Shown one piece after another: positions 5,388 to 63,996 of a stretch of 64,000 nt of DNA (the stretch's first letter is position 1; each line of letters opens with the position of its first letter). This DNA is from Bolinopsis microptera. Lineage: Eukaryota > Ctenophora > Tentaculata > Lobata > Bolinopsidae. The position numbers and the translations under genes are program-made. Under the pieces are notes generated by a model. It had not been told where the DNA came from, did no database searches, and saw nothing but the letters and a program-made list of their open reading frames with translations. The stretch is from assembly GCF_026151205.1 (NCBI RefSeq), contig NC_087081.1, positions 16,046,837 to 16,110,836 on the forward strand, read 5' to 3'.

Positions 5388-8300
5388 ATGTCCAGATTCT
5401 CTCAAGGAGATATTGAAGTAGACGAAACTCAGAAGCAGGCTGCTATCAAGAAAAAAGTCCAGGCAAATGAAGCGTATAAGAAAAAGGAATATGACAAAGC
5501 TCTCGTTTTGTATGACGAAGCGATACAATTGGATCCTACTCAGGTGGTTTTCTACAATAATAAAGGAGGTAGGCAGTTTAGAGTCTACTTTAAATTCGTC
5601 TTAAATTGAATTTAGATTTGGCCTAAATTACCTCTTAATAAAGACTGGAAACGTTATAATGAAATTTGTCCACCAGGTCACCTGATCATCAGGTCACCTG
5701 ATGACCTGATGGTTTGGATGACAAACAATAACACGTGTTTGTGGAATTAACGTTCAAACTCTTTTCAGCGGTTTACATTGAAAAAGGGCAATATCTGATG
5801 GCAAAGAATGTATGCTCTAAAGCACTCGAGATTGGAGAAAAATATAGTGCTGTTAACAGAGATATTTCCAGGTTTGATTCCTGCAATGATTCCAATTTAA
5901 TATTAATTCTACTCATGTTGATAAACCTATACGCTTCATTGTTATAATCTTGATAACATGTTAATTTTGTGTAGTTAAAAAAGAACGTTATTCTAAAGAG
6001 TGATTCGTTCGATGACTCAATCGAAATTCTTTTAAGGGCTCTGGAGCGCAAAGGAAAAGCTTGTTTTAATCTAGGCGAAGTCTACAACGCCATGTGGAGT
6101 TATAAAAAGGCGATGTTGCTTCACGAAAAGATCAATATTTCTGATGAACTAGAAAAGGTTAATAAAGCTATATTTTCTAGAATTTTAAAGTTAACTTTAA
6201 AGCTCTGATAATTAAAAAATAGTGAAGTACAAAATCAAAAGTTTTAAATCGAAGGGAGAGATGAATGATGGTATAATTTTTTAACAATAAATCACACTGA
6301 TAATTCAGGTTTATGCAGTCGTCAAGGACGCTCTGCTTAAACCAGGTGCGTTGCCAGTCTAAATAGCGTAATAAATTTAGCAATTTTTTAAAATTAGATC
6401 ATTCCTTTTTGATCCTCAAAAGTAAATCGATAACTGGATGAAAACATGAACTTGTGAATGAAATTGTTAAATGTTTGATGATAAAAATAGCAATTCAAAT
6501 CAATAATTTGTAGAAAATGCATAAATGAATGTTGGGCCTCTTCAGACGATTTGTCGGAGAACAAGATCGAAGCTGCAGGTGATATGATAGCACGGATTTA
6601 CGTTGACCGTCAGGCGAGGTATAAGATGGAGTATGATACTCCTGCTATGTTCCCTCCTGCTCCACAACAGACCTTCGTTGATGCCTTCTCAGAAGAGGAT
6701 TCTTCTCAATTGAGCTTGAAACAAAAAGACCAACAAGTTCAGTATGATGCCGAGGTTGACCTCTTTAGGGCACTGGAGAGTTTAGAAGCTAAAGGAAAGA
6801 TAGTTGTCTTGCATAGCTTTGATTTCAGTAAAGAACAAGCTCAATTGTTCTCTATGTCAGAAGAATCCTCTAAAAATCAAGGAGAAGGAGAGCAGGATTT
6901 CTTGGTTATTGTTAGAGATCAAGCAATAGTCCTGTTCGAAGTGAAGTCCCCCATTCAAATTAGTAATAATAACTTTAAGAAAAATGTAATTGAATCTAGA
7001 AAGCAGCTTGATCGAGCATACGAACTTGTTTCAAATATATACATGAAATTTGGGGGTTTAACATCTGACTTGACGATTCTCCAGTTTACTGTCTTCCCTA
7101 AGACAGCAAAAGTCGATCTCACTAGTTTTCCTTCATACAAGGCATATCTGGCAAACAAAATGGGGAATATCAAGGTTTTATTCCAGGAAGAAATCCAGAA
7201 CTTCAGCAATTGGTGGACTGATAATTATGGCAGGTCTACTCCAACCTAACATTTCTTCTGGCGACAGAACGATAATGCAGCGCCTTGAAGCTTCCTTAAT
7301 TGGACTTTGGTGTATTGACAAGAAAAACATCTGTAATATTGACATATGCAGCTTAGGATATTGTATCAGACAGGTTGACGAGGCAATAAAATCTGAGCAC
7401 ATAACTCACAGGAAATATTTGAAGAAACCAGTGTCAAAAAGTGTCGAAGTGAGTCCTGATATATTCAAAACGTTTCTTGGCATCGATTGCCTCACTGATG
7501 AACAATTGCAGATATTTCAAGAAAGTAAAATGTCCCAGTTCATCGTGGGAGCAGCTGGGTCTGGAAAAACGATTTTGCTCTTTGGCAAAATAATACAACT
7601 CTTTCGAGGATCATCAAATAATAGGGATGGAAAGAAGAAATTCCTTCTTTTAACAGGAACTATGGATTTGGCAGGTGTTGAAGAACTTTTTAGCAAGGTT
7701 GGTATGAGGGTCATGGTTTCACACAGTGTGTACGGAGGACATAATTCCAGATATGGAAATTTGAAATTACAGAAAAATGACCTTTTCTTTGAAGCTTTCA
7801 ACAGCAACGATGCAGCATCTGACATCTTTATTTTGCATCATGAATCGCTACGAGAACCACATTTTTGGCCAGAGAACTTCTTCGTGGAATTGTGAAAGAA
7901 GCATTCTTTAGTGTGATCAATCATAAACATTGCCACATATTTATCGATGACTTTCATAACTACTTGGATAAACGTTTAGCGTTCCATATAGACAATGATC
8001 CTCATTATGAATATGATACAGGCTTTTCCCAAGGTCTAATTCGAGGACTTTTCCAAGAGATGACTAAAAGAATTGGTGTGGAAACGCTGTCAGATTCATA
8101 CTTCTGGCTGGTTTACGACCAAAGTCAAATGACTGTTTCATTCAAGTTAAAACATGAATCTTTAGGATCATTTTTACGGCGCCGGCAGCTTTTATTCCTT
8201 TACGATAGAGATTTAAGAAACGCTCTTGATGACAAGTTTGAAAAGAATAACGACTTATTTCGATCACTATCAAGAGGCCTTAGAAATACAGTAGACATCA

Positions 8301-9229
8301 CTCTTGCTATAGAGAATGTATACATGCACAAAGCAAACCATTTTGCTGGACCAAAACTGAAAAAAACACTTAAGCTACCTAAATTATACAAAGGACCTGG
8401 TCATCAAATCAATGGCCCAAAACCAGTTTGTGTCTTTGTTAAAAATAGCGATTTTCAAGAATATTTGGTACACAAAGTAATATTAGACGAACTTGAAAAA
8501 CTGCTTCTTTTGGGTGATCACCTATCTCCGGCAGACGTAGCGATTATATCTGACTCGCACACTCCACTCGTCAACCACGGCAGCAAAGAAGAACCTTGTC
8601 CCATACCAATGAAAATGATGATGAAATTGCAAGGTAAATTAGATGAAGTTACCATACGAATGATCACTGATCGTGATTGCATTCAGGCATCTGAGTGGAA
8701 GGCTGTGATATATGTAGCTAATCTCCGGGAAAATATTAATCGAAAGGGTTTCATCCCGCAAAGCGGGAAAAAACCTGATGTTATAGGATCGTATATGTCA
8801 TTTCAACTGTCGTCGATGTATGTGACATTGAGTAGAGCTAGAGCTTACCTTGTAGTTATAGGCAAACTTGGTGGTGAGGAGCGCCTGGAATTTTCTGACG
8901 TTATAGCACGTAAGTGGAAATCGTATTCGAAGCATGGTACCGGACCTAGGACTGGTATCCTCCGCAATTTAGCTGATACGTGGAAAAAGGATCCAGGACT
9001 TCATCAGGGGGACATTGTGGAACCTACATTTAATAAAGGAGAACATGTTTTCCTAAAGAAGAGTGATTTTCTTCAGCGTGTTGTCGATAACAGCACACAT
9101 TTACCGGACTATAAGTTTATAGATTCAAGTGTATTTGATTCACAGGAGAGGGCCATCAAAGGTGAAGGAATTTGGTTTCGGCCAGAAAATACTGTAGAAT
9201 TTTCAGAAAGGCCGGATGCCCCAGAATAA
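5388..9229 (+). CDS. TPR - NERD-like nuclease - SF1 (UvrD/Schlafen-like) helicase fusion protein
   Basis: Five exons: 5388-5568, 5769-5871, 6037-6157, 6309-6345, 6546-9229, all with GT..AG introns and matching phases; about 1,041 residues. Residues ~20-130 are three TPRs closest in pattern to the Hop/STI1 TPR2A module (QANEAYKKKEYDKAL; LGEVYNAMWSYKKAM), suggesting chaperone or peptide binding. Residues ~215-340 resemble a NERD nuclease (EVDLFRALE; EGEQDFLVIV; FEVKSP, the E..D..ExK pattern). Residues ~470 onward are a superfamily-1 helicase: Walker A GAAGSGKT, IFIDDF in place of DE-box, WLVYDQSQ (motif III), QASEWKAV (motif V), YVTLSRARAYLVV (motif VI). The frame slips +1 near 7237 (GG) and back near 7871 (T5 run); single-base corrections give continuous homology-like sequence, so these are either assembly indels or real. 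Role is inferred: nucleic-acid processing or defence. TPR and helicase are firm, NERD likely. Confidence 0.85.
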
Positions 9230-9426: not shown

Positions 9427-9505
9427 GGGTCAGTAGCTCAATTGGTAGAGCAAGAGACGCGAAATCTCGAGGTTCTGGGATCATTCCCCAGTTGTTATGT
9501 CCCTA
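9427..9505 (+). mobile_element. tRNA-like sequence, probable tRNA-derived SINE head or tRNA pseudogene
   Basis: TAGCTCAATTGGTAGAGCA is a good RNA polymerase III A box and D arm. A near-complete anticodon stem (GAGA/TCTC) and a T stem CTGGG/CCCAG follow. The T loop lacks the expected TTCRANY and the anticodon loop lacks U33, so a functional tRNA is unlikely. The translated form (SVAQLVEQETRN) is a familiar artefact of tRNA-derived repeats. The 3' boundary of any SINE tail is not visible. Confidence 0.6.
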
Positions 9506-12347: not shown

Positions 12348-35926
<23,579 letters not shown>

Positions 35927-38795: not shown

Positions 38796-39669
38796 GTTAC
38801 TGGCCAGGGCCTAACTTCAAAAGTAAAAGAGATAGATAGCGACTTCCGGTTTTTGCAACATGTTCGTCTTGTAAAGTAACCTTCCCCCTTCCCCTCCCCC
38901 CCCCCCCCCCTCCAGGAGGAAATTTAAGACAACGTAGATTTTGAATTATCTTCAATTCTCCAGAAAAGTGTCATTTTGGGCCGATCAAAAGTTTAAGTAA
39001 CTTTAACTTTGCAGATTTCTGTACTCTGATTGGCTGAATTGTGTCACGATCCATGTGTTACCTTGGTAACAGGTGCTACCTTGGTAACATGAGCTGCCAT
39101 TTATTTAAAACCTATGGTGCGAAGCTCAAACTAACAGTTATTAATTACTCCTCAAGCTGGATCCCTATTCCTGAACCTCATCGAAATTTAGGCTTTTAAG
39201 TTAAAAATTTGGCTTTAGACAATGTAATTTGCAGTTATACACTTATTATACACACACAGTATTGTTCCTCCGCCCTGTGGACCACATAGACTAGGCTAGC
39301 TCATATAACATCTGAACTGCTGTTATTTAAAACACATGGTGCAAAGCGAAGCTCAAACTAACAGTTGTACTGAAGCTTTAGTTCGGAGATCACTTCTAGT
39401 AAATGTTTAGAACATTAAGTTTCGTAATTTAATAGCTTTATGTAGCTTTATATGAATCAGCATTATCCGAATACCTTATTAACATTAATTTGAACCTGTT
39501 TCAAATTTGGTAACCACATTCGCTTGTTTTTTATTTTCTGGGTTACTATCATCACTTTTTATAAGCTTGTTTCTGCCTGATGTCAGATGTAAACAAAACG
39601 AAAAGCTCCTCAAATAAAAACTGGAATTTAGTTTTGTACAGTGAACCTTGACTTATTATAATTAGTGGA

Positions 39670-40905
39670 ATGGAGCAGCAAAATGTTCCAGACTTTAAAG
39701 ATGAGATGAAGATAGAAGAAGAAAGTATTTCACCGGAACTGATCAAGACAGAGATTAAGAAGGAGGAAGATAATTTTCTTATTAAATCAGAATTAGTGTA
39801 TTCGAAATCGAACGCAGTTTCTCAGTCGGATTGTCCCAACCAGGACACAGCATTGCTTCGCTACCAGTGGGTTCATCCCAATGAAAATGCTTACATTCGC
39901 TCTGAATGTTCCTACAATGCAAAAACAGCTTTAGTTTCACATCAACGGACTCATACCGGTGAAAAACCGTATAAATGCTCCGAATGTTCCTACAGTGCAA
40001 GCTACAAATCAAACCTAGTTAACCATAAGATGACTCATACCGGTGAAAAACCGTATAAATGCTCTGAATGTTCCTACAGTTCAAGCCGAAAAGCAAACCT
40101 AGTCAGCCATCAAATATCTCATACCAGTGAAAAACCGTATAAATGCTCTGAATGTTCCTACAGTTCAAGCCGAAAAGCAAACCTAGTCAGCCATCATATA
40201 TCTCATACCAGTGAAAAACCGTTTAAATGCTCTGAATGTTCCTACAGTTCAAGCCGAAAAACAACCCTGGTTCGACATCAGATGATTCATACCGCTGAAA
40301 AACCGTATAAATGCTCTAAATGTTCCTACAGTTCAAGCCATAAATCAGCACTGGTTTACCATCAGATGACTCATACCGGTGAAAAACCATATAAATGCTC
40401 TGAATGTTCCTACAGTTCAAGCCGAAAATCAGACCTAAGTAAACATCAGATGACTCATACTGGTGAAAAACCGTACAAATGCTCTGAATGTTCCTACAGT
40501 GCAAGCGTAAAAGAAAACGTAGTTCGACATCAGATGACTCATACCGGTGAAAAACCGTATAAATGTTCTGAAAGTTCCTACAGTTCAATCCAAAATTCAA
40601 CTTTCTTTCAAAAATGTAGTGTTGGAGGACCCATTTTTGTTAAGCCTCTACCTTTCGTGAAGCCTCTCACATTTGTAAAGCCTCTGAACTTCGATGACCC
40701 CTTTCTTTCCAGTTCCAGCTTACCTCCCAGTTCCTTCTCCAGTAACCAACCAGAATCTCACAAGTCTCACCCTACAGATCCTCTCACCTTCTCACCTGGT
40801 GAATCTGTTTTCACACCTGCTCCCACTGTCCCACCTACCTTATACTCTACAACATTTCCTTCCACCTTTCATATTTCCTGCCAGTTCAGCGACCATGGGG
40901 CGTAA
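39670..40905 (+). CDS. C2H2 zinc-finger protein, intact copy 1
   Basis: Single-exon 411-residue protein. The first ATG (in GGAATGGAGCAGC) is used because copy 3 keeps it. Residues ~10-42 are acidic with four SUMO-type motifs ([16 protein letters not shown]). Residues ~78-300 hold one degenerate finger (SEC..., first Cys lost), seven intact C2H2 fingers of the form [20 protein letters not shown] joined by TGEKP-type linkers, and a last degenerate one (YKCSESSYSS). The tail (~310-411) is Ser/Pro/Phe-rich with a triple F-V-K-P-L repeat. Nuclear DNA binding is expected; recognition positions differ between fingers. A candidate poly(A) signal follows at 40999. It is the only undamaged member of the triplet. 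Confidence 0.92.
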   Translation: MEQQNVPDFKDEMKIEEESISPELIKTEIKKEEDNFLIKSELVYSKSNAVSQSDCPNQDTALLRYQWVHPNENAYIRSECSYNAKTALVSHQRTHTGEKPYKCSECSYSASYKSNLVNHKMTHTGEKPYKCSECSYSSSRKANLVSHQISHTSEKPYKCSECSYSSSRKANLVSHHISHTSEKPFKCSECSYSSSRKTTLVRHQMIHTAEKPYKCSKCSYSSSHKSALVYHQMTHTGEKPYKCSECSYSSSRKSDLSKHQMTHTGEKPYKCSECSYSASVKENVVRHQMTHTGEKPYKCSESSYSSIQNSTFFQKCSVGGPIFVKPLPFVKPLTFVKPLNFDDPFLSSSSLPPSSFSSNQPESHKSHPTDPLTFSPGESVFTPAPTVPPTLYSTTFPSTFHISCQFSDHGA

Positions 40906-43520: not shown

Positions 43521-46500
43521 GCATATGATACAATCGCTTTGCGCGTGCCTTTCGTTGTAAAACTTTTGCTCCCGCCATTTCTACGAAATGTTAACAACTA
43601 CAACTCACCTGTGGTCACGTGATCACATCGGAACTTGGAAGAAGAGGCTGCCCAACTTGCTGTCAACTTCTTTCCTTCCAGATAAGTCACTTTACCTTGT
43701 AGTGCACTACCGAAGTAGTTCCGATCATGTCATTCCATTTCCTTGCAAGTCCCCGGATCTCGCCCAACACCCCCTGCAGGGACGGAGCTTCACACGAAAC
43801 GACGAGTAAACACAAGCTGGAGTCACACTACTTTGCAAGCTACAAGACGGTGCCGACTTCTTTTCCTTCAGATAAGTTTAACACATCCGTATTGCACTGC
43901 CGAAGTAGTACTTAACTCTAGGGGTAACCTACTGTTAGATTTCCTCGCTTGTAATCGACTATCGCTGCTAAATGGTAACACACTGGGAGACATCTTTGGG
44001 GAATATACCTCTGTCAACTACAATGGTGCCAGCGTAGTTGACTATATGGCAGTCACACCTGAATTGTTGGAATCAGTGCTGTCATTCCAAGTGCAGAATC
44101 TTAACAAATTTTCTGACCACAAGCCTTGCATCTGCAAAATAAAGCACAAACACAACTTGGTTGATGCAGAGGATCTACTTGAAACACTAGAAGACGCACC
44201 AAAAACATACAAATGGGATAATGAGGACGAGAAACTTCAATTTCAGTTTCATGCGATCCAGAATTCGCCAGAATTTGTTCAGAAAATAACCCGAATCGCG
44301 GAAACCCAATGCACAGACAGAGAACAAGTTTTGTGTCTTAATGAAGAACTCGTATCTATCTTCCAAGACATTGCCGATGTTATTTTTCCGACAAAGGGTC
44401 CGAGGAACAAGCCAGATAGGAAAATAGTGAGCGGAAAAAGAAAAAGGACACAAAGGATGAAGCCCAAAGCTCCGTGGTTTGATGTAAGTTGTATAAACGG
44501 CAAGCGGGAGTTGAACAAACTGTCCAAAAGTTACGGCAAAAATCCTACGAATAAAAAACTCAGAGACTCTTACTATGAAAGTCGACGATTATATCGGAAA
44601 CTCATAAAACTTAAAAAGTATGCATTCATAGAGGACCTATGTAGTGACATCGAACGAGGCAAAAATATTAACTGGTCCCGTTTCAAGAGGCTTAAAGATA
44701 TGAAGACAAATGGAAGCAAATTGGACGTCTTTGATATGCTTAACTTCAGCAAATTCTTCAAAGAGCTGTATAGTAAACCATCGATCAGCCCAAAGAAAAT
44801 AAAAGAACTACAAGACGAAATGAACAGAGATGCCACCCAGCAAACACTCACAGAAATCCTTGAGCAAGACATAAGCTCCGAAGAACTGTTGGCTTGTACT
44901 CGAGTGCTCAAGAAAGGGAAAGCAGTGTCGGAGGATTTAATCCCTAATGAATTTCTCAAACTCTCTGGAAAACATATGCAGTACGCTATACTGCATCTCT
45001 TTAACCTATGTTTATCACACAGAGTTTATCCCTGGGGAACATCTGTTGTGACGCCTCTGCACAAAAAAGGCAACATCTACGATCCCAACAACTATAGGGC
45101 AATTGCAGTAGCCAGCAACGTGGGAAAACTGTTTGCAAGTATTCTCCTCCAGAGACTTATAAAATTCCGTGCAGAGACAAACCCTGACACCCCCAATCAA
45201 CTGGGGTTTTGTAAAAACGCGCAAACAGCAGATCATATATTGACACTGTCGACTTGCATAGAAAAATATGTAAAAGCTAACAAAGGCAGATTGTTCTCCT
45301 GTTTTGTTGACTACGCCAAAGCGTTTGATACAGTCTGCCGGGAGGCACTCTTGTACAAACTCTGGAAACTAGGCATCAAAGGAAGATTCTTTGGTTGCAT
45401 GGAGTTCATGTACACAAACTCCAAAGCAAAAATCAAGCTCTTGAACAAGCTCTCTGAAAAGATCGATGTTCTTTGCGGGACTGAACAAGGACACCCCATG
45501 TCTCCAGAACTCTTCAAATGCTTCATACACCAACTATCAGAAGACCTTAATTCTATGGAAAATGTCGAAGTACCGTTACTGAAAAGTACTAGAGTAACCC
45601 ACCTCCTCTGGGCCGATGACCTGATTCTGTTGGCTCTCGATCAAGAGAGTCTTCAAAGAATGTTAGAAGTACACACCTACTGTCAAGAGTGGGGGTTATC
45701 GGTTAACATATCAAAAACAGCAATTATGGTGTTTAACCGGGCAGGACGGGTGCTCAAGGACAGTACTAATTTTGTCTACGGGGAAATGACCTTGCCATCA
45801 GTGCGTGAGTACACATATCTTGGAATTACGTTCACACTCACGGGATCATTAAAACTTGCTCAGATAAAGCTTAGACAAAAAGGGCTCCGGAGCTACTTCT
45901 CTCTCAAGAGTATGCTTGACCTTCGATACCTCCGGAAGACAACTGTGTTTAAGCTTTTCGACACTCTGATTGTTCCTGTTCTATCCTACGGGTGTCAGAT
46001 CTGGCTTCCCATGTGACAAATTTCATGTCTATCTTTGCTTCGGGGAGTTATCCGGCTACTCAGGATACAGCAAAAGACCCCCTTGGAGAAAGTTCACCTA
46101 TCATTTATGAAATGGACTATGAATGTCAACAAATCGACTTCAAACACCGCTGTGTGGGGTGACACTGGAAGATACCCGCTTGCCATCGAGCTTACGTCCC
46201 AAGTCTATAGCTACCTCGGGAGGTTGGAGGGACTGGACAAAGAGGGATGCTCTTCTTTAGTGAGGCACGCTTACGCCGAGCAGAGGGATCTGAAACTGTT
46301 ATGGTTCTCCCGGCTGGAATCCACCAAGAACACAGTGAAAGAACTGACAGGAGGAAGTGATATTTCAAACCCGCTCAAAATCAGCGAGGCTATGAAAACC
46401 CTTTTCGTTCAACAATGGAACAAAGAGCGAAAACTCAACAAAAAACTAGGATTCTACAACCTCATCAAGGCAAGCTTCGGTTGCGAAACGTACCTGTCGA

Positions 46501-47107
46501 TCAACCTACGGCCACAGCAGACTAGGAGACTTGCGCAACTCAGAACAAGCTCGCATCAATACAACATCGAAACTGGAAGACACGGCATGCATCGACAAAA
46601 ACTTTCGAATAGGGCATGCAAACACTGTTCTACTACAGATGTGGAGTCACTCGATCTTCTTCTAGAGCTTCCTTTCCCTGATCCAATCATCGAAGATGAA
46701 CTTCATGTATTGCGTACTTGCCCTCTCTATGAAGATCTCCGCCACTGTTTGTCCCAACAAAGTAAAACATTACTCTTCTCTGACATTGGACAGATCTTCG
46801 CACACCCTACAACCATCGGAGACCTAGGAAGGTTCCTTACCAAAGCTCATGAACGAAGATTCCCTAAAGCGTCCTCCAAACAAATTCCTAACATTAACAA
46901 TATTGCCAAATTATAATCTATGACTCGGAACACTTTCAGAAAAGTTCATTTAAATTATTAAGTATTTTGAATCTCACTCTTAAGATTTACGGGGTTCATT
47001 GTATATATATACTTTATGACTTTTGGGTAAGTTTAATTTTGTATATCTGGTCAGACATTACCATTGTAATTTGACTTTTGAATCGTTTAATCCTTTTAAT
47101 CCGTTTA
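43521..47107 (+). mobile_element. 5'-truncated CR1-like LINE inserted in copy 1 of the triplicated unit
   Basis: The insertion is defined by copy 2, where GGTTATGGCATATG runs directly into GGATAGCTTCGGGG (52367-52395). Here those flanks are 3.6 kb apart (43507-43520 and about 47105-47118) with a short (ATG or TATG) duplication. It contains the pol pseudogene at 43910-46916. A ~65-bp stretch in the 5' part (AACTTCTTTCCTTCCAGATA... and ACTTCTTTTCCTTCAGATAA...) is duplicated at about 43665 and 43855. Confidence 0.85.
43910..46916 (+). pseudogene. LINE pol (endonuclease remnant + reverse transcriptase), one nonsense codon
   Basis: Starts within the apurinic endonuclease (LGDIFGEYTSVNYNGASVVD, SDHKPC near 44118), so the catalytic N-terminus is lost. 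The reverse transcriptase is complete: TPLHKKG, NNYRAIAVASNVGKLFA, FVDYAKAFD (motif A), GTEQGHPMSPELF (motif B), LLWADDLILLA (motif C, catalytic DD), YLGITFTL. A TGA at 46014-46016 interrupts an otherwise continuous frame that resumes to 46916 and ends with a C-x2-C...H-x4-C knuckle (CKHC, HVLRTC). About half the residues match the LINE at 57.2-64 kb, so they are relatives, not copies. Few lesions imply recent insertion. Confidence 0.9.
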
Positions 47108-48110: not shown

Positions 48111-49576
<1,466 letters not shown>

Positions 49577-52175: not shown

Positions 52176-53357
52176 CACCCATGAGAGTTTAATCAGAATT
52201 GCAGTGTATTTTTAGACGCTGATTGCTAATCACCCACATGCATCATGACGGAGGGTAAAACTACTTCCCTGGAGAGTTACGGGCAAAAAAACTGTATTGG
52301 TCACGTGACGAATTTTATTAATTAGGGCTCGGGTAAGGGTTATATAATATAGAGTTATTATGGTAAGGGTTATGGCATATGGATAGCTTCGGGGTTATCA
52401 TGGTCACTGTTATATATTAGGGGTAGGGTTGGAATAAGGGGTTTTGTATAAAAACCATTTTGTTTGCGGCGACATCTAGCGCTAGATAGGTCCCACTTAG
52501 CAACACTTAGCAACACGTGATTACAATATTATAACAGTTCCCAGAAAACCTTACTGACCAGGGCCTAACATCAAAAGTAAGAGAGATAGCGACTTCCTGT
52601 TTTTTGCAACATGCTCATCTTGTAAAAGTAAAGTTTACCCCAGGGGGAAAATTTAAGACAACGTAGATTTTGAGTTATCTTCAAATCTCCAGAAAAGAGT
52701 CATTTTCGGCCGATCAAAAGTTTGCAACTTTAACTTTGCAGATTTCTGTACTCTGATTGGCTGAATTGTGTCACGTGCTAGCTGCTTGAAGATTGGAATT
52801 TTGCTGGGTTAACTACATAACTACACACGCAGTCGGTCACTTATACTATGACCCTGCTTTCACATCACGTGTTACTGTTAACAAGTGTTACCTTGATAAC
52901 AGGTGTTACCTTGGTATTGACATACGTTGCATACCACTTTTCGCGCCATAATATCTCTGATGTTCGTGATACGTGCCATGTATCAACCTTGGTAACAGGT
53001 ACTATCTTGGTAACATGAGCTGCCATTATTTAAAACTTATGGTGCGAAGCTCAAACTAATAGTTATACTGAAGCTTTAGTTTAGAGATCACTTCTAGTAA
53101 ATGTTTAGAACATTAAGTTCGTAGTTTAATAGATTTATGTAGCTTTATAAGAATCAGCATTATCCGAATACCTTATCAACCTTAAGTTGTACCTGTTTCA
53201 AATTTGGTAACTACATTCGCTTGTTTTTTATTTTCCGGGTTACTACCATCACTTTAGATAAGCTTGATTCTGCCTGATGTCAGATGTAAACAAAACGAAA
53301 AGCTCCTCAAATAAAAACTGAGATTTAGTTTTGTACAGTCCTTGACTTGTTAGTGAA

Positions 53358-54549
53358 ATGGAGCAGCAAAATGTTCCAGACTTTAAAGATGAGATAAAAA
53401 TTGAAGAAGAGAGTGTTTCGCCGGAATTTATCAAGACAGAGATTAAGAAGGAGGAAGATAATTTTCTTATTAAATCAGAAGTTTGTTCGAATTCAGTTTC
53501 TCAGTTGGATTGTCCCAACCAGGAATCAGCCTTGCTTCGCTACCAGTGGGTTCATCCCAATGAAAATGCTTACATTCGCTCTGAATGTTCCTACAATGCA
53601 AGCAAAAAAACAGCTTTAGTTTCTCATCAACGGACTCATACCGGTGAAAAACCGTATAAATGCTCCAAATGTTCCTACAGTTCAAGCCGAAAATCAACTC
53701 TAGTTAACCATCAGATGACTCATACCGGTGAGAAACCGTATAAATGCTCTGAATGTTTCTACAGTTCAAGCCGAAAAGCAGAGCTAGTTAAGCATCAGAT
53801 GATTCATAACGGTGAAAAACTGTATAAATGCTCTGAATGTTCCTACAGTGCAAACGTAAAACAAAACTTAGTTCGCCATCAGATGACTCATAGCGGTGAA
53901 AATTCGTATAAATGCTCCGAATGTTCCTACAGTTCAAGCCGGAAATTATCTCTAGTTAACCATCAGATGATTCATAACGATGAAAAACCGTATAAATGCT
54001 CTGAATGTTGCTACAGTGCAAACGTAAAATAAAACTTAGTTCGCCATCAGATGACTCATAGCGGTGAAAAACCGTATAAATGCTCTGAATGTTCCTACAG
54101 TTCAAGCCGAAAATCAACCCTGGTTCGACATCAGATGACTCATACCAGTAAAAAAGCATATAAATGCTCTGAATATTCCTTCAGTTCAAACGTAAAACTA
54201 AACTTAGTTCGACATCAGATGACTCATACCGGTGAAAAACCGTATAAATGTTCTGAAAGTTCCTACAGTTCAATCCAAAATTCGACTTCCTTTCAAAAAG
54301 GTAGTGTTGGAGGACCCATTTTTGTTAAACTTCTATGACCCCTATCTTTCCAGTTCCAGCTTACCTCCCAGTTCCTTCTCCAGTTACCAACCAGAATCTC
54401 ACAAGTCTCACCCTACAGATCCTCTTACCTTCTCACCTGGTGAATCTGTTTTCACACCTGCTCCCACTGTCCCACCTACATTATACTCTACAACATTTCC
54501 TTCCGGCCCCTCGCATATTTCCTGCCAGTTCAGCGACCATGGGGCGTAA
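53358..54549 (+). pseudogene. C2H2 zinc-finger gene, copy 3, nonsense and frameshift
   Basis: Begins MEQQNVPDFKDEIKIEEES like copy 1, with the SUMO-type motifs. It encodes one complete and several further fingers until TAA at 54030-54032 replaces CAA in NVKQNLVRH. Downstream, fingers continue in frame ([16 protein letters not shown]; then SKKAYKCSEYSF with a lost Cys). About 46 bp of the F-V-K-P-L repeat are deleted near 54330, shifting the tail into another frame (YLSSSSLPPSSFSS) that still ends at 54549. The 224-residue truncated product could still be made. Confidence 0.88.
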
Positions 54550-57642: not shown

Positions 57643-60600
57643 TTATGTCTGTTGAGTTGGTAGTCCTGATGGGGTGACAGGCAGTATTGGCGTCTTTTTC
57701 GGGTTCCTGATGCGGTGACAGTTGCAAAGGAATTTGCCCAGTTCTTGCACATGGGCAGAATTCATGATAGCTCCGTATTCCTTGAGCAGCAAAAGACTCT
57801 TAAGGTTTTCCGACAGTGAGAGTCTCGCTGAGTGGTACATTGGACATTCAGTGAGGCAGTGTTCTTCATTTTCAATGATTGTTCCTTCGAAAAAGGGGAG
57901 ATATTCTAAGCCTTGAACGTTATCCTTGTTGCAGCAGAATCTGCAGGCTCTCGTCCACGTTCCTGTTTCTTTTGTGTATCTCCCTCTCTCAATAAGAAGG
58001 TCATGGCTACTGGAGCGGATTTTTGCTATGTGCATGCGACATTGACTATTCTTTAGATTGAGATACTGCTCCTCTCCGAATACCTGTTTGATAGTGCAGT
58101 AAAATTGCATTTTCTTTTGGGATGCTAAATCTGTTCTCCAATCTTTTACAAAGTGATCAACCAAATTTCCATGTGCAGTTGAGGTCGTTCCTTCTGCTCT
58201 GTGTTGGTCGGATCGAGCGAATTTGGCCGCTTTGGATTCAGACTGAGCGATCGAGTTCCAGGTCTTATACCAAGAGAGGTTTAGATTCTTCTGCTCTTGG
58301 AATGTCTGATGTACAAGAAAGTTGACGCTGCTCACGTCGGGTGATGTCTGAGACAATCTGTCGAAGTATCTCAGGCATTGTGGTAGTACCGACAGGGCCC
58401 ATGGTAACCTGCCCGTATCTCCGTAACAGAAGTTGTTGTTAGCTTTCTTGTGTAAGCCGAGCACCCATTTCAGCATTTTCAGGTGTGTTGTCTCAAGTGC
58501 GTCCTTTGTTGCAGCTCTAGCAAGGTTCTGTCTTGAACCATCAGCGCAAGCCATCTCCTTTGCCATTTTTGTAGACGGTAGCCATATCTGACAGGCATAC
58601 GTAGCGACTGGTTTAACGAGGCTGTCTATAAGCTTGAGCATGGTTTTTGTTGTTAATGCTCGAGTGTCGACCATGCGTCTGATCGAGAAAAATGCTCTTA
58701 GTGCTTTTTTCCTCAGTTCGTTCATGGCACCTTTAAATGAACCGTTGAGACTGAATTGAATGCCTAGATAGCAGTAGGATTTGGCCGATGAGATGTCCAG
58801 GTTCCCTAGTTTGAACCCGTAGGAGCACTTCAGCAAACGAGAGCTCGAGTTGAATACCATGATTTTGGTTTTGTCGATGTTAATTGACAGTTCCCATTTA
58901 CTTGCAAATTCGTGCAGGCAATCAAGTTGTTTCTGCAGGCTTTTGGCGTCGAGTGCCAAAAGTATCAGGTCGTCTGCCCACAGAAGATGGCTGACCGGGA
59001 AGCCGTTCAGTTCTGGAATTGACAAGTCCTCAAGAGCTGCTAGTCTAATGGAGAGGTCATAAATGTATACCTTGAAGAGCTCCGGCGACATTGGATGCCC
59101 CTGTTCGGTACCAATGGTGACATCGATGGTGTCCGACAGCTTCTTGCTCAGTTTGATACGGGTAACTGAGTTGCTGTACATGTTCTGGAGGCAAGAGAAG
59201 AAGCTTCCTCCGATACCAAGTCTACTGAGTTTGTACATGAGAGCCTCCCTGCAGACTGTGTCGAACACCTTACGATAGTCCACGAAGCAAGCGAATATTT
59301 TCTTCTTCAGCTTCTTTGTATACTTCTCGATGATCGTTGTAAGGGTCAGGATATGGTCAGAGCACTGGGCACCAGCTCTGAATCCGAGTTGGTGAGGGAA
59401 GTCGGGACAGACGACTTTACGGAATTCGATCAGCCTATCAAGGAGGAGGGATGCAAAGAGTTTTCCAAGGCAACTTCCGACTGTGATTGCTCTATAGTTA
59501 TCGGGGTTCTGCTTGTCCCCCTTTTTGTGTAGGGGGGGTAGTTATTGAGCAGTTCCAGGGGTAGATTCCTTGCGTTAGGCAACCATTGAATAGTTTCAGA
59601 AGGACTTTTTGGAGACCGAGTTTGGAGCTCTTGAGCATCTCGTTGGAGATAAGATCACATGAAACGCTTTTGTTATTCCATGGAGCTTATTGGTGACTTT
59701 CTCCAGTTCTTGGATAGTAAACTCTGTGTTGAGTTTTTCAAGTTCGACTGATGGCTCGAGGTGGTACTCGGTTCCCTGTTCACCTGCTTCGTTGGTCAAA
59801 GTGTTCGTTTGTAGTCCACCGTGCGAGGGGTCCTTGCACTTCTGATTGTATAGGTCGTTGAAGAACTTGTGAAATGCGATCAGGTCATATATGTCGAATG
59901 TATCGGGGTCCTTGCAAGCGGACGAGAGGTCTTTTAAAGCAGCCCAGTTGATGTTGTTGCTGAGGTTGATTTTCTCGTTAAGTTTGTATAGGTAAGCTCC
60001 CTTTCTAGCTCGTGTTTGTGCCCTGTATTCTTTCTTACGGAGGTAAAATCTTGCTCTGTTGGATTCCACGAGCATAGGATCGATGTGGGTGTTATTCTTG
60101 GCTCTTTCGTCTCTACAGACTAATCGTTTAGCATGCCTACAACTCCAATCAAACCATTTGTTTTTGTTAGTACTGGGCTTTCCACTTTTCTGGGTGGTAA
60201 CTTGACTTGCCAGGTTAGTAAAGGTGGCAATCACAATTTCATTGAAACTGCGAATGTCGTCAGGGGAGGAGATATCAGTTTGAAGAAGAGAATCAACTTT
60301 TTCTTTGAATTGAGCGGTGTTCTGGGCTGACTTGAATTTTTCTGTGGTACCAAGTCCAGAGCAGGCATCTTTGGTCCACTTGAATGGCTTCGGGATCGAT
60401 GCGAATTTGAGCTCCATTTCGTTCGAGATGTCGCCAGCCATCACAATGTTCCTTATGTTAGTGGTTAAAGTGGTGGATATTGGTCTGTGGTCAGAATAAG
60501 GGGTGAGGTCACCAACTTTGAAGAACCTTGCCCGATGAAGGAGGCTGTGGGACACGCAAATGTAGTCGACCGTACTTACTCCATTTCTTTGAATGCAAGT

Positions 60601-61321
60601 AGGACTGCCAAATATGTCCCCAATTGTCCTTCCGTTTAGGATTATCATTCCAGTTGTCTGGAGTAGCTCAATGAAGGGTTTGCCGTTGGAGTTGAGAATC
60701 CGATCTTGGTTGTTTCTAGAGGCTACCTCAGTAGGAGATATAGAATGCTGGGGAGGATCGAGTTCAACTTGAAGGTCCCTAGACTCGCATGGTGTAAGGA
60801 AGTCGTTCAATGTGCCGGTCCGCGCGTTCATGTCACCAAGTATGGCAGCATCTTCGGAGTCGGGGATATTTGATAGACACTCTTCTAAGTGCTCACAAGG
60901 TGGTTGTATATTGTTCCATTTTGGAACGCATTCGTTTCTTGTATGAGCCATGAGCTGGCGAGTCGTACACATTGATAAGATTCAGATCTTTGTCAAGGTT
61001 GAAGTATTTGGCTTTAAGCTTTACGATGAGTATGTCGTCGCATTTGGAAAAAGGAACTCTGACTACTCCTGCAGCCAAGTGCTTCCGGATCGCTGTGCAC
61101 ACGCCACCTGAGTTGCTATCCGATCTGTTGGCGTTGAAGCATTTGGATTCCCGCATAGAAACCTGTCCTTTAGTTTCTTGTAGGCAGACGATATCGTGGC
61201 CAGCTATGAGCTTCTGGATCTCGTCAATTTCGAATTTGACACCCTCAAATTTGTCACGCTGGTGGTTGATGTTCCAGCTCATGAGTTTGAGTGAGTGTCT
61301 CATCTTAGGGGGGCTATTCAT
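57643..61321 (-). pseudogene. LINE ORF2: AP endonuclease and reverse transcriptase with frameshifts
   Basis: Starts MNSPPKMRHSLKLMSWNINH at 61321. Endonuclease blocks: WNINH, DIVCLQETK, NSGGVCTAI, ILGDMNARTG, STVDYICVS, SDHRP. Reverse transcriptase: DNYRAI, FVDYRKVFD, GTEQGHPMSPELF, HLLWADDLILLA, CYLGIQFSL; C-terminal zinc knuckle CRFC...HCLTEC. The frame slips near 60898, near 59675, and at a C7 run (minus strand) near 59535 where six Cs would keep TPLHKKGDKQN in frame. All are single-base, consistent with either young decay or homopolymer error. Confidence 0.88.
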
Positions 61322-63996
61322 CTCTAAACCTGTTCGTGCTGCGTCTGGATCTGTCCTTTGGTTGGTAGCTTACTCGAGGTAAGCGCATTGTTTTCCTCAT
61401 TCCTTCACGGAGGCGCACCCACAGCATTTTTTGACCTCGTTCTCTCAGCTTGAACCCTTCGTTACTTGTGTAAAAGTTTTGGTCACCGATGCTGTCATTT
61501 TGGAAGTAAAGATCCTATCTTTTGCAACCGGCTTGTGTTTGTGGAGCCAGCTCACATAGTCTTCAACATCTTTGTTGACGATGCTGATTCTCTCATTGAG
61601 GGCTTTATCGTTGCTCGATGGAATCAGTCCTGAGAAGCATATTTGGGCTTTGGTTGTGTTCATGAGGTGCTCGGAGAACTCCTCAACGATACTCACGAGA
61701 CCAGATTTCTTTTTGAGAAGGTCATTTATCCCCGTGTGAACATATATGCATTCGGGCTTGAGTCGTTTGATGGTGCTGTTCAATAGCTTTGTTTTTTTAG
61801 TCGTATCCTCATAGCTGTCAAACTTGAGGCAGTGTACGTTGAATTGACTATTGAACAGTTTAGGGTTGAAGTGATCAAAGTTACTATCGTGGATCAGAAG
61901 AACAGTGTGCTGTCTGTAACTTTCCCTTATTCGCCTGGAAGATTTGTTCTACTCTCCTTGGCTTCACGACTCGGTTGATTAGGTTGTGCCTCGGATGCGG
62001 TGGTCTCTGATGTTTTGACTCACTGGCGGTTGTCCTGTCTGGTTGCTGGTACAGGTACATTCTCTTTGTGGTTTTTTGCTGTTCTTCTTGTTCGATGTAG
62101 TGAACGTCTCGAGCCTCCATTCTCAACGATCTTGGACCACAGGATACCCTGTTCGCTTCCCTGTTCGTATCATCGACAGAGGCCGTGTGTCACGCCGGGC
62201 GGGCTTGTGGTTCGCCGGAGGCTGTGGTGAACTGGCGAGGGCCTGCGTCAGACTCTCATGGTTTACTTCAAGTGCCTCGATTCGGGTCCTATTTGAGGAA
62301 CTTACAGTTTCAAATGACTGAAAGGCTAGATTGAGCTCACCATTTAGCTCTTCAGCTGTGGCTTGTGACTGGTTCTTAGCAGTGTTTGCCACACTCTTGA
62401 CTGCTTTCTTCAGATTGTCTTGGCCTAGCTCAAGTGTTTCGAACTGCCTTCTATTAGCGATATTCGTTGCTTCCAACTTGTCGAAGCAGTTAGCAAGCTC
62501 AGCTCTTAAGTCTGGAGAGGACTGAGTCCTCGTGTTGGGCCACTAGGTCAGAGTATTGTTCTGTTCATCTACTGCCTCTCTAAGTAGGTTGAGGTCAGCT
62601 CTTTGTTGGTTCACTTTGTCTTCAATCGGACTGAGCTTTTTCGCGACTAAGACTTCCAGCTTTTTGTCTGAGGCAGTAGGTGACGAGATGATCAGGTCAG
62701 AGATTGCCTTTTGTTGCAGTATCTCTTCTTTAAGCGTAATAATACTGTCTTGTAGCACTGTCTCCGCCGCCTTTAACTCAGAGCATTGACTGCATTCGGT
62801 ACTTATTAGGTGACCCTTGAGGGGCATATCGCCCGCAGTTTCCATGTCGTCGTTAATTTCAGTGGTTGGCCCGTTAGCGGATAAAAGGCTCCCGGTATCA
62901 GGTGCGACTAAAGAATCTGATGAGGACCAAGGGGGACGCGAGGGGAGGTGTTGTTGCTACCCTTTTTTTTCCTTTTTCTTTCTGTGCGACTTTCCCTTTT
63001 TTTCTTCTTCGCACTTTTGGTGCAAGATTGATCCTTGGGGGTACCAAATTGAAATTTGGTATCAGTGTTACCAGACAGAGGTCCATCAGGGGTTACGTAG
63101 TCGCCCGAATCGTGTGGGCTCGGTTGGTCACGGAGAGACGGTGTGTTGTGCAACTGTAAGATGTTGCGGGTTGAATTACTCTGATCATCCTCACCTGGAT
63201 TTTCGAAAACTAGTCTAATCGCGTTACTGTTGCCACTACACTGATTACTACAAAACGAGATCAGAGCCTTTTTTCTTTCTTGGGCTGAAAGGCTCAAGGG
63301 AAGATAATTGGCAAGGAGTTCCATTCTGATCACTGTTTCTTCGAGTTTATTGATGAGATGAGTGAGTAATTTCACCGTGTTCTTGCTTCCTGTAGACTCA
63401 CAAGTTTCGAGTAGGTCACAGAGTTTCTTTTTGTTGAGAGAGACATTGTTGCTACCCTTGAGTCCGAGAGATGTCATCAAAGTGGACAGTGAAGACTTCT
63501 TGTTAGAATTGGCTGCTCTCTTCAGGAGATCAAGGGTGATGTATTTCAGAGTGATTGAGGAGCCCTTGTCGAGACTGGGATCAGTGTGGTCCACTTCTTC
63601 ATCGGCGAAGGACTCCTTGTGGCTGGTGTCGTCCGGGGTTGCTTTAGTTGTCTGTTTCTGCGTATCTTCGCTTTTCTGACTGCAGCTTGATATTCTTAGG
63701 GGCAGTGATTCGGCAGCAGTATTGTCTATCTCGTGTAGCGGAATCACCGGTTGGTCGAGTTGCACATCCAACGGCTTCATATCTGGCGATTCAGATAGCG
63801 GTGACTTGAGCTTGGTGGTGCTAGGCTCGGCAGTGGTGACTTCCTTCGTAGCAAGGTAGTCCTCCTCTATCCCCAGGGATTCAACCTTCGCTAGTGAGAT
63901 TTCTACTTTCGTTGTAACAATATCCTCGATTGAGGCTGGTGCAGCTGGGTTGCTGTGCTGCATGATCTGAGTCGGTAATTCGGCTGAGGTCTGCAT
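61315..63996 (-). pseudogene. LINE ORF1 with SGNH-esterase-like domain, frameshifted, 5' incomplete
   Basis: From 63996 down: a long Ser/Thr-rich region, then a helical block (KKSSLSTLMTSLGLKGSNNV, CDLLETCESTGSKNTVKLLT), a basic patch (KSAKKKKRESRTERKRKKKG), coiled-coil segments (about 62845-62540 and 62480-62200), then an esterase-like domain: HTVLLIHDSNFDHF (block I), CIYVHTGINDLL (GxND block III), ICFSGLIPSSND. It ends ...RRSTNRFRDE with stop TAG at 61314-61316 overlapping the ORF2 ATG. At least five single-base slips separate the pieces. SGNH esterase domains are known from ORF1 of CR1-group elements. Confidence 0.75.

Follow-up and report, generated by a model that had tools for sequence, protein, structure and literature searches.

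The DNA analysed here is a 64,000-nucleotide stretch of the genome of the ctenophore Bolinopsis microptera (C10:16046837-16110836 of a 264.65 Mb assembly in 232 contigs), referred to below as the window, and the gene in question lies at positions 5388-9229 of its forward strand. The locus has five exons: four small ones that carry a tetratricopeptide repeat (TPR) module, and a large one that carries a NERD domain of the PD-(D/E)XK type followed by a superfamily 1 (SF1) helicase. Exon 1 (5388-5568) provides the start codon and the first TPRs in an open frame with a GT donor at 5569, exon 2 (5769-5871; phase 1 in, 2 out) continues the TPRs, exon 3 (6037-6157) encodes the third repeat, and exon 4 (6309-6345; phase 0 in, 1 out) a short helix after the repeats. 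These four exons have GT/AG borders, and their phases, read by eye, agree (1/2/0/1). The junction of exons 2 and 3 is identical in the paralogs L054, L055 and L056; a suspected third lesion, or phase conflict, between these two exons was dropped, the paralogs having supplied an equivalent acceptor for exon 3.

Exon 5 (6546-9229) does hold both nuclease and helicase, as the initial annotation had proposed for a single exon of 2.7 kb, but the frame is lost twice within it, leaving three open stretches in two frames. The NERD domain occupies 6548-7222, with GEQDF near 6887-6901 and EVK at 6938-6946; its frame is lost at approximately 7223-7230 and stops at 7249, and similarity goes on in another frame through the linker and the N-terminal part of the helicase (7227-7865, with Walker A at 7548-7571). 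This second frame is lost in turn at approximately 7850-7866 and stops at 7895, and similarity returns to the first frame for helicase motifs II (DD, 7946-7951) to VI and the C-terminal tail (7865-9229), a segment covered by our alignment A1 and matched by paralogs from the same genome at 41% identity (8.7e-75). The paralogs rule out chance similarity. As assembled, the window copy encodes no single continuous protein, and the breaks at about 7.22 and 7.86 kb reflect either pseudogene decay or an error of assembly. That this one locus is a dead pseudogene, a functionless member of an ordinary paralogous family, is in our judgement an evenly balanced possibility: it is favoured by the two frame losses, and by the shortness (<500 amino acids, aa) of 47 of the 150 open frames found at NERD places in the genome, and disfavoured by the lack of stop codons inside the three matching stretches and the retention of all motifs, an assembly error being possible.

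Searched alone, the window NERD domain matched Pfam PF08378 at an E value of 0.0087 (17.0 bits, under the curated cut-off of 22.1) and, in another search, of 0.011. Among its paralogs, Pfam NERD was matched by 18 of the 18 members of alignment A2 at E ≤ 0.01 (best 1.2e-10) and by 19 of the 23 in A1 (best 7.4e-10), the latter being the open frames retained from 27 after removal of L052, a reverse transcriptase, and of three partial frames (L048, L016 and L053). The D of GExDF and the EVK motif are present in all 21 A1 rows that reach the NERD site, and Q155 is invariant; the A2 rows were anchored on EVK, so that this motif is there by construction, and the other invariant columns of A2 are independent of it. 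The family keeps the PD-(D/E)XK residues D, E-x-K and a downstream Q, and this signature agrees with the NERD-like nuclease that the initial annotation had recognized. A single-sequence structure model of the NERD piece of the window, unreliable at a predicted local distance difference test (pLDDT) score of 35 (33 for a second window piece), gave an order of elements (helix, three strands, helix, strand) that would fit the PD-(D/E)XK fold. Judged by its sequence, the NERD domain is predicted to cut nucleic acid. Two further loci show other arrangements of the domain: L036 (1-3090, minus strand) encodes a pair of NERD domains within a single frame, EVK being absent from the first and present in the second, and at L052 (3514-7013) a 96-aa piece of NERD adjoins a reverse-transcriptase-like frame of 745 aa.

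The helicase half of the window gene carries Walker A (GAAGSGKT), FIDDF, ASEWKAVI and TLSRAR, and the columns of A1 contain all of the SF1 motifs I, II, III, IV, V and VI, the standouts being Walker A, the DD of motif II, D..Q of motif III, LSxNLRNT, GHxIHGPKP, EWxAVI and SRAR. The Pfam UvrD N-terminal domain matched the window at 7.3e-4 and 17 of the 23 A1 members (best 1.8e-8), and the SF1 assignment made earlier thus holds; the last 461 aa of the window gene, taken alone, gave no Pfam match beyond a chance-level one to BCNT. Motif II is DE in HelD, AddA and PcrA-UvrD. In A1 the DD of motif II and the D..Q of motif III are invariant (23 of 23), and DD instead of DE is a trait of the family. 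The motifs suggest that the family helicases hydrolyse ATP.

Likeness to the Schlafen C-terminal helicase had also been proposed, and here the outcome was mixed. A search of the PDB with A1 returned Schlafen 5 as the best match (1.3e-6), followed by HelD (1.3e-5) and SLFN11 (3e-5), but the likeness is unspecific, given that with the helicase alone (alignment A3, 16 rows) HelD (1.4e-6) and Schlafen 5 (2.7e-6) score equally. The SLFN group 3 helicase profile PF09848 matched 4 of 23 members (best 0.0024; L003 reached 15.3 of 24 bits), and the Schlafen core (AlbA_2) is absent from 25 of the 29 Pfam families that match A1, the remaining four matching at most one member each.

The product of exons 1-4 matched Pfam TPR_1 at 6.5e-13, and its best natural match in the PDB is the TPR2A region of STIP1/Hop (2.9e-35), one engineered TPR protein ranking higher; together with the exon borders, this bears out the Hop-like TPR2A module described in the initial annotation. 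At the five positions that we take to form the Hop TPR2A clamp (K, N, N, K, R, with their presumed numbering), the window has K, N, N, R, R; in L056 the last is W. Members of this type probably dock on Hsp90/Hsp70, to judge from the clamp residues.

TPR exons lie upstream at six NERD places (the window, C6:4.786, C6:4.793, C6:13.85, C8:1.44 and C8:1.82 Mb), of which two, C6:4.793 (873 aa) and C6:13.85 (893 aa), have an unbroken large frame. No TPR was found at E ≤ 1e-3 upstream of NERD at 30 other loci (L024-L046, 23 loci, 1.5 kb; L047-L053, 7 loci, about 3.6 kb), and in a NERD tree of 45 tips the five TPR tips that it includes group together as a single clade (support 0.994). Given this grouping and the lack of a TPR match at the 30 other loci, the TPR exons were most probably gained once, ahead of an older single-exon NERD-helicase. 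These data are in line with the earlier suggestion of a nuclease-helicase block sitting behind TPR exons, the direction of the gain being our reading of a tree that is midpoint-rooted and otherwise unrooted. Extra TPR stretches occur between or before gene copies at L054 (6709-7449) and L056 (99-879), and may be remnants of more TPR genes.

Profiles of bacterial defence systems also match part of the family. Of the PADLOC profiles run on A1, RTasNERD-Hel matched 6 of 23 members (best 6.9e-10), C3a187 ('NERD+UvrD') 13 of 23, Nhi 12 of 23 and GajB up to 14 of 23, and the read-through of the window copy matched RTasNERD-Hel at 6.1e-5. Horizontal acquisition of the large exon, as suggested in the initial annotation, is a candidate reading: direct searches of bacterial, plasmid, phage and viral sequences, which reach close relatives only, returned no relative at E ≤ 1e-3, one of them giving a single match at E 0.8 and another eight at E 0.2-9.

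The family is very large. With the window NERD domain as query, at least 150 places were found at E ≤ 1e-3 among 182 candidates, with open frames of at least 690 aa at 86 of them, of 500-689 aa at 17 and shorter at 47; a second query, from L049, likewise gave at least 150 places among 169 candidates. The union of the two, formed from the first list and 35 apparently new L049 rows picked by eye, and merged within 1,200 bases, comes to at least 171 NERD places, 170 of them on C1-C13, the 13 chromosome-size contigs with a combined length of about 258 Mb, and 95 with open frames of at least 690 aa, the helicase having been seen in those long frames that were examined for it. Places are not genes, as a broken gene may count twice, and the counts are lower bounds. 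The places are clustered, with 29 pairs of neighbours within 20 kb where 2.3 would be expected at random, and for this reason we favour local duplication as a source of copies.

Dispersed copies are exemplified by family A, with members on C13, C6, C3, C11 and C2, of which 15 were compared at the DNA level. In three dispersed copies, similarity is restricted to a unit that begins about 85-95 nt ahead of the ATG and ends about 65-145 nt after the stop, and the adjoining sequence, about 1 kb on either side, showed no inverted repeats round this unit. Its limits are roughly those of a messenger, and the dispersed copies may thus have been retrocopied, but many copies have an acceptor-like conserved stretch ahead of the ATG; spread by DNA duplication with divergence of the flanks, by retrocopying or by an unknown element are all possible. 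If the NERD-helicase unit were carried by an undescribed mobile element, copy number would simply record transposition, and both the short shared flanks of the dispersed family A copies and the frequency of frame-broken copies would fit. We nevertheless think this unlikely: besides the missing inverted repeats in the three copies compared and the clustering of near copies, the NERD domain has a ratio of nonsynonymous to synonymous divergence (dN/dS) of 0.17-0.31 between family A copies, and the most similar copies compared share one chromosome, though these were mostly picked by position.

How the two halves of the protein evolve was examined in family A, using the seven copies with a full frame, and in family C, whose four copies, all on C12, share about 35% protein identity with the other families. 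In Nei-Gojobori windows across family A, NERD and linker gave the dN/dS range just cited, the region between motifs I and II gave 1.72, 1.39 and 1.05, that round motif IV 0.33, and that near motifs V-VI 1.21 and 1.01, with dS at 0.15-0.34 in all windows. Codon models agreed: over the whole frame, M2a was favoured over M1a with a likelihood ratio (LR) of 53.2 in family A (7 sequences, P 2.8e-12) and 42.8 in family C (4 sequences, P 5e-10). Sites with a posterior above 0.9 number 11 in family A, all of them beyond Walker A, and 13 in family C, where 12 are beyond it and the remaining one precedes it by 14 residues. When the halves were given their own trees, LR was 59.0 (A) and 52.1 (C) for the helicase and 0.0 (A) and 2.9 (C) for NERD, and the highest value among 25 simulations of the family A helicase under the null model was 5.3. 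Blocks with their own trees gave signal from Walker A to motif II (P 2.9e-5 in A, 5.6e-5 in C) and from GHxxG to the end (P 2.6e-6 in A, 8.5e-8 in C), with P 0.012 from motif II to GHxxG in A, while the NERD block was not significant (P 1 in A, 0.2 in C). Strong positive selection is thus confined to the helicase half in two separate subfamilies. Within the very similar pair F, the helicase has 9 amino-acid changes and no silent one, and NERD has 2 amino-acid and 4 silent changes.

That the nuclease residues and helicase motifs are kept and the surface between the motifs changes suggests a fixed effector joined to a variable sensor or contested surface, a pattern such as immune proteins engaged in an arms race would be expected to show. 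The selection on the helicase of families A and C makes the innate-immunity candidate of the initial annotation more likely, the role itself being our interpretation. We favour, with moderate confidence, an explanation in which the window locus, whether decayed or misassembled, belongs to a very large, diversifying NERD-SF1 helicase family whose products act as intracellular defence factors. Their targets would be foreign nucleic acid, from viruses or mobile elements; with the surfaces between its conserved motifs, which vary among copies, the helicase would engage either nucleic acid or a protein of the pathogen, and its ATP-driven movement would enable the constant NERD domain to cleave the target or, as a suicidal response, the nucleic acid of the host. 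TPR members probably dock in addition through the Hop-like clamp on the C-terminal tail of Hsp90/Hsp70, for folding or control.

The same selection data would be accommodated by defence directed inward, with the family restraining the genome's own transposons and the helicase tracking changing elements. Elements of the long interspersed nuclear element (LINE) type are present in the window, and SLFN11 restricts LINE-1 according to the excerpt available of one paper (PMC12153781); no specificity for an element was seen in our data, however, and we consider this explanation unlikely. Improbable to a similar degree is that these are enzymes of DNA repair or RNA quality control, processing damaged or aberrant nucleic acid and amplified for other reasons. 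The best solved relatives include HelD, AddA and PcrA, and the TPR clade is under purifying selection, but a presence at 171 or more places and positive selection limited to the helicase would be unusual for such enzymes.

Several observations weigh against the family-wide defence role that we favour. The window copy is frame-broken, as are four of the six TPR copies; L003, the first member of A1, matched no PADLOC family; and DD in motif II could lower ATPase activity. The codon models were run in our own GY94 implementation, with gap-flanking codons removed, and the block from motif II to GHxxG gave no signal in family C (P 0.33). Both halves of the TPR pair L003/L054 show purifying selection (dN/dS 0.30 in NERD, 0.43 in the helicase), the helicase of pair D stands at 0.50 (close to 1 in the stretch from motif I to motif II), and in pair E the NERD domain is also about 1 (1.06) beside a helicase at 1.44; pooling E and F, the difference between helicase and NERD has a Fisher P of 0.09. 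Families B and F are too alike for a selection test. The synonymous divergence of NERD is low in family B (0.006, against mostly 0.02-0.13 in the helicase) and in family D (0.064, against about 0.5-1.0), which is a sign of gene conversion, and L004/L056 have tracts free of silent-site changes. Conversion events within the helicase could make the selection tests overstate the signal, an effect that block-wise trees reduce.

In the literature searched, which left most subscription journals outside its scope, we found no animal NERD-helicase family. The papers pairing 'nuclease-related domain' with 'NERD' concern, in the text available from them, bacteria or prokaryotic defence, apart from one bean association study; Schlafen, NERD and helicase occur together only in a BREX paper, which concerns prokaryotes in its accessible portion (PMC12839542), and the term 'NERD' does not occur in the available text of a paper on Mnemiopsis immune genes (PMC11797021). 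NERD-helicases are already known from bacteria, and what appears to be new, within that literature, is an animal family of such size and with such a pattern of selection. We tentatively propose, at somewhat less than an even chance, that ctenophores possess more than 100 germline nuclease-helicase immune proteins, related to bacterial NERD-helicase defence by descent or by convergence. A single fixed nuclease would be combined with many diversified helicase sensors, in a logic like that of plant NLR repertoires, and the set would include a chaperone-docked TPR branch. If so, a lineage near the root of the animal tree would own a large, fast-changing repertoire of nucleic-acid defence, resting on a nuclease-helicase combination that is otherwise known in bacterial anti-phage systems, and this would bear on how recognition diversity arises in animals without vertebrate-type immunity and on the takeover of bacterial defence modules by early animals. 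With a constant nuclease and a variable helicase, the split between sensor and effector is directly testable.

The remainder of the window contains LINE-type endonuclease/reverse-transcriptase frames at 43719-46916 (plus strand; RVT_1 2.2e-27) and 57643-61369 (minus strand; 7.2e-26), and three similar C2H2 zinc-finger frames on the plus strand (39652-40905, 48488-49576 and 53346-54032), which seem to be tandem duplicates and are separated by repeat arrays that also resemble each other. Directly past the gene, at about 9430-9500 (plus strand), lies a tRNA-like stretch in which ARAGORN calls no gene and which is perhaps a short interspersed nuclear element, and at 13818-14565 (plus strand) a 12-residue unit in tandem repeat is open in several frames. 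Elsewhere in the genome, several ionotropic glutamate receptor genes (C12 11.78-11.81 Mb, C6, C8, C9) have open frames of 900-990 aa and therefore apparently few or no introns. Of two such receptors checked, L067 is most similar to the ligand-binding domain of Mnemiopsis ML032222a (212 bits, the next named protein scoring 189), and L066 to vertebrate kainate receptors, with no ctenophore entry among the 60 matches listed.

Set against known systems, the family shares features with several and coincides with none. With the TPR2A module of Hop/STIP1 the window gene has in common three TPRs and largely kept chaperone clamp residues, whereas the remainder of its protein is unrelated and it has a single TPR module. 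HelD/DNA helicase IV, AddA and PcrA-UvrD share the SF1A motifs (1.4e-6 to 6e-4) but are without NERD. The group III Schlafens SLFN5 and SLFN11 provide the best or second-best solved helicase relative, and SLFN5 seems to have DDAQ at motif II, in an aligned segment not significant alone; in contrast to them, the family has no visible Schlafen core, its nuclease is NERD, and HelD scores equally. The bacterial NERD-UvrD defence helicases (RTasNERD-Hel, C3a187, Nhi and AbiO, with GajB for the helicase) have the same succession of NERD and SF1 helicase in one chain, NERD-Hel and C3a187 by name; the likeness comes from profiles, and here the protein is animal, with DD in motif II, a variable helicase surface, very many copies and a TPR clade. 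Finally, in Hachiman HamAB, as described in the excerpt of a recent paper, the helicase is able to restrain and then release the nuclease (PMC12278908), and HamAB and Gabija share with the mechanism proposed here the use of a helicase as sensor and a nuclease as effector, although these systems consist of two proteins with other folds and the likeness is one of logic, not of descent.

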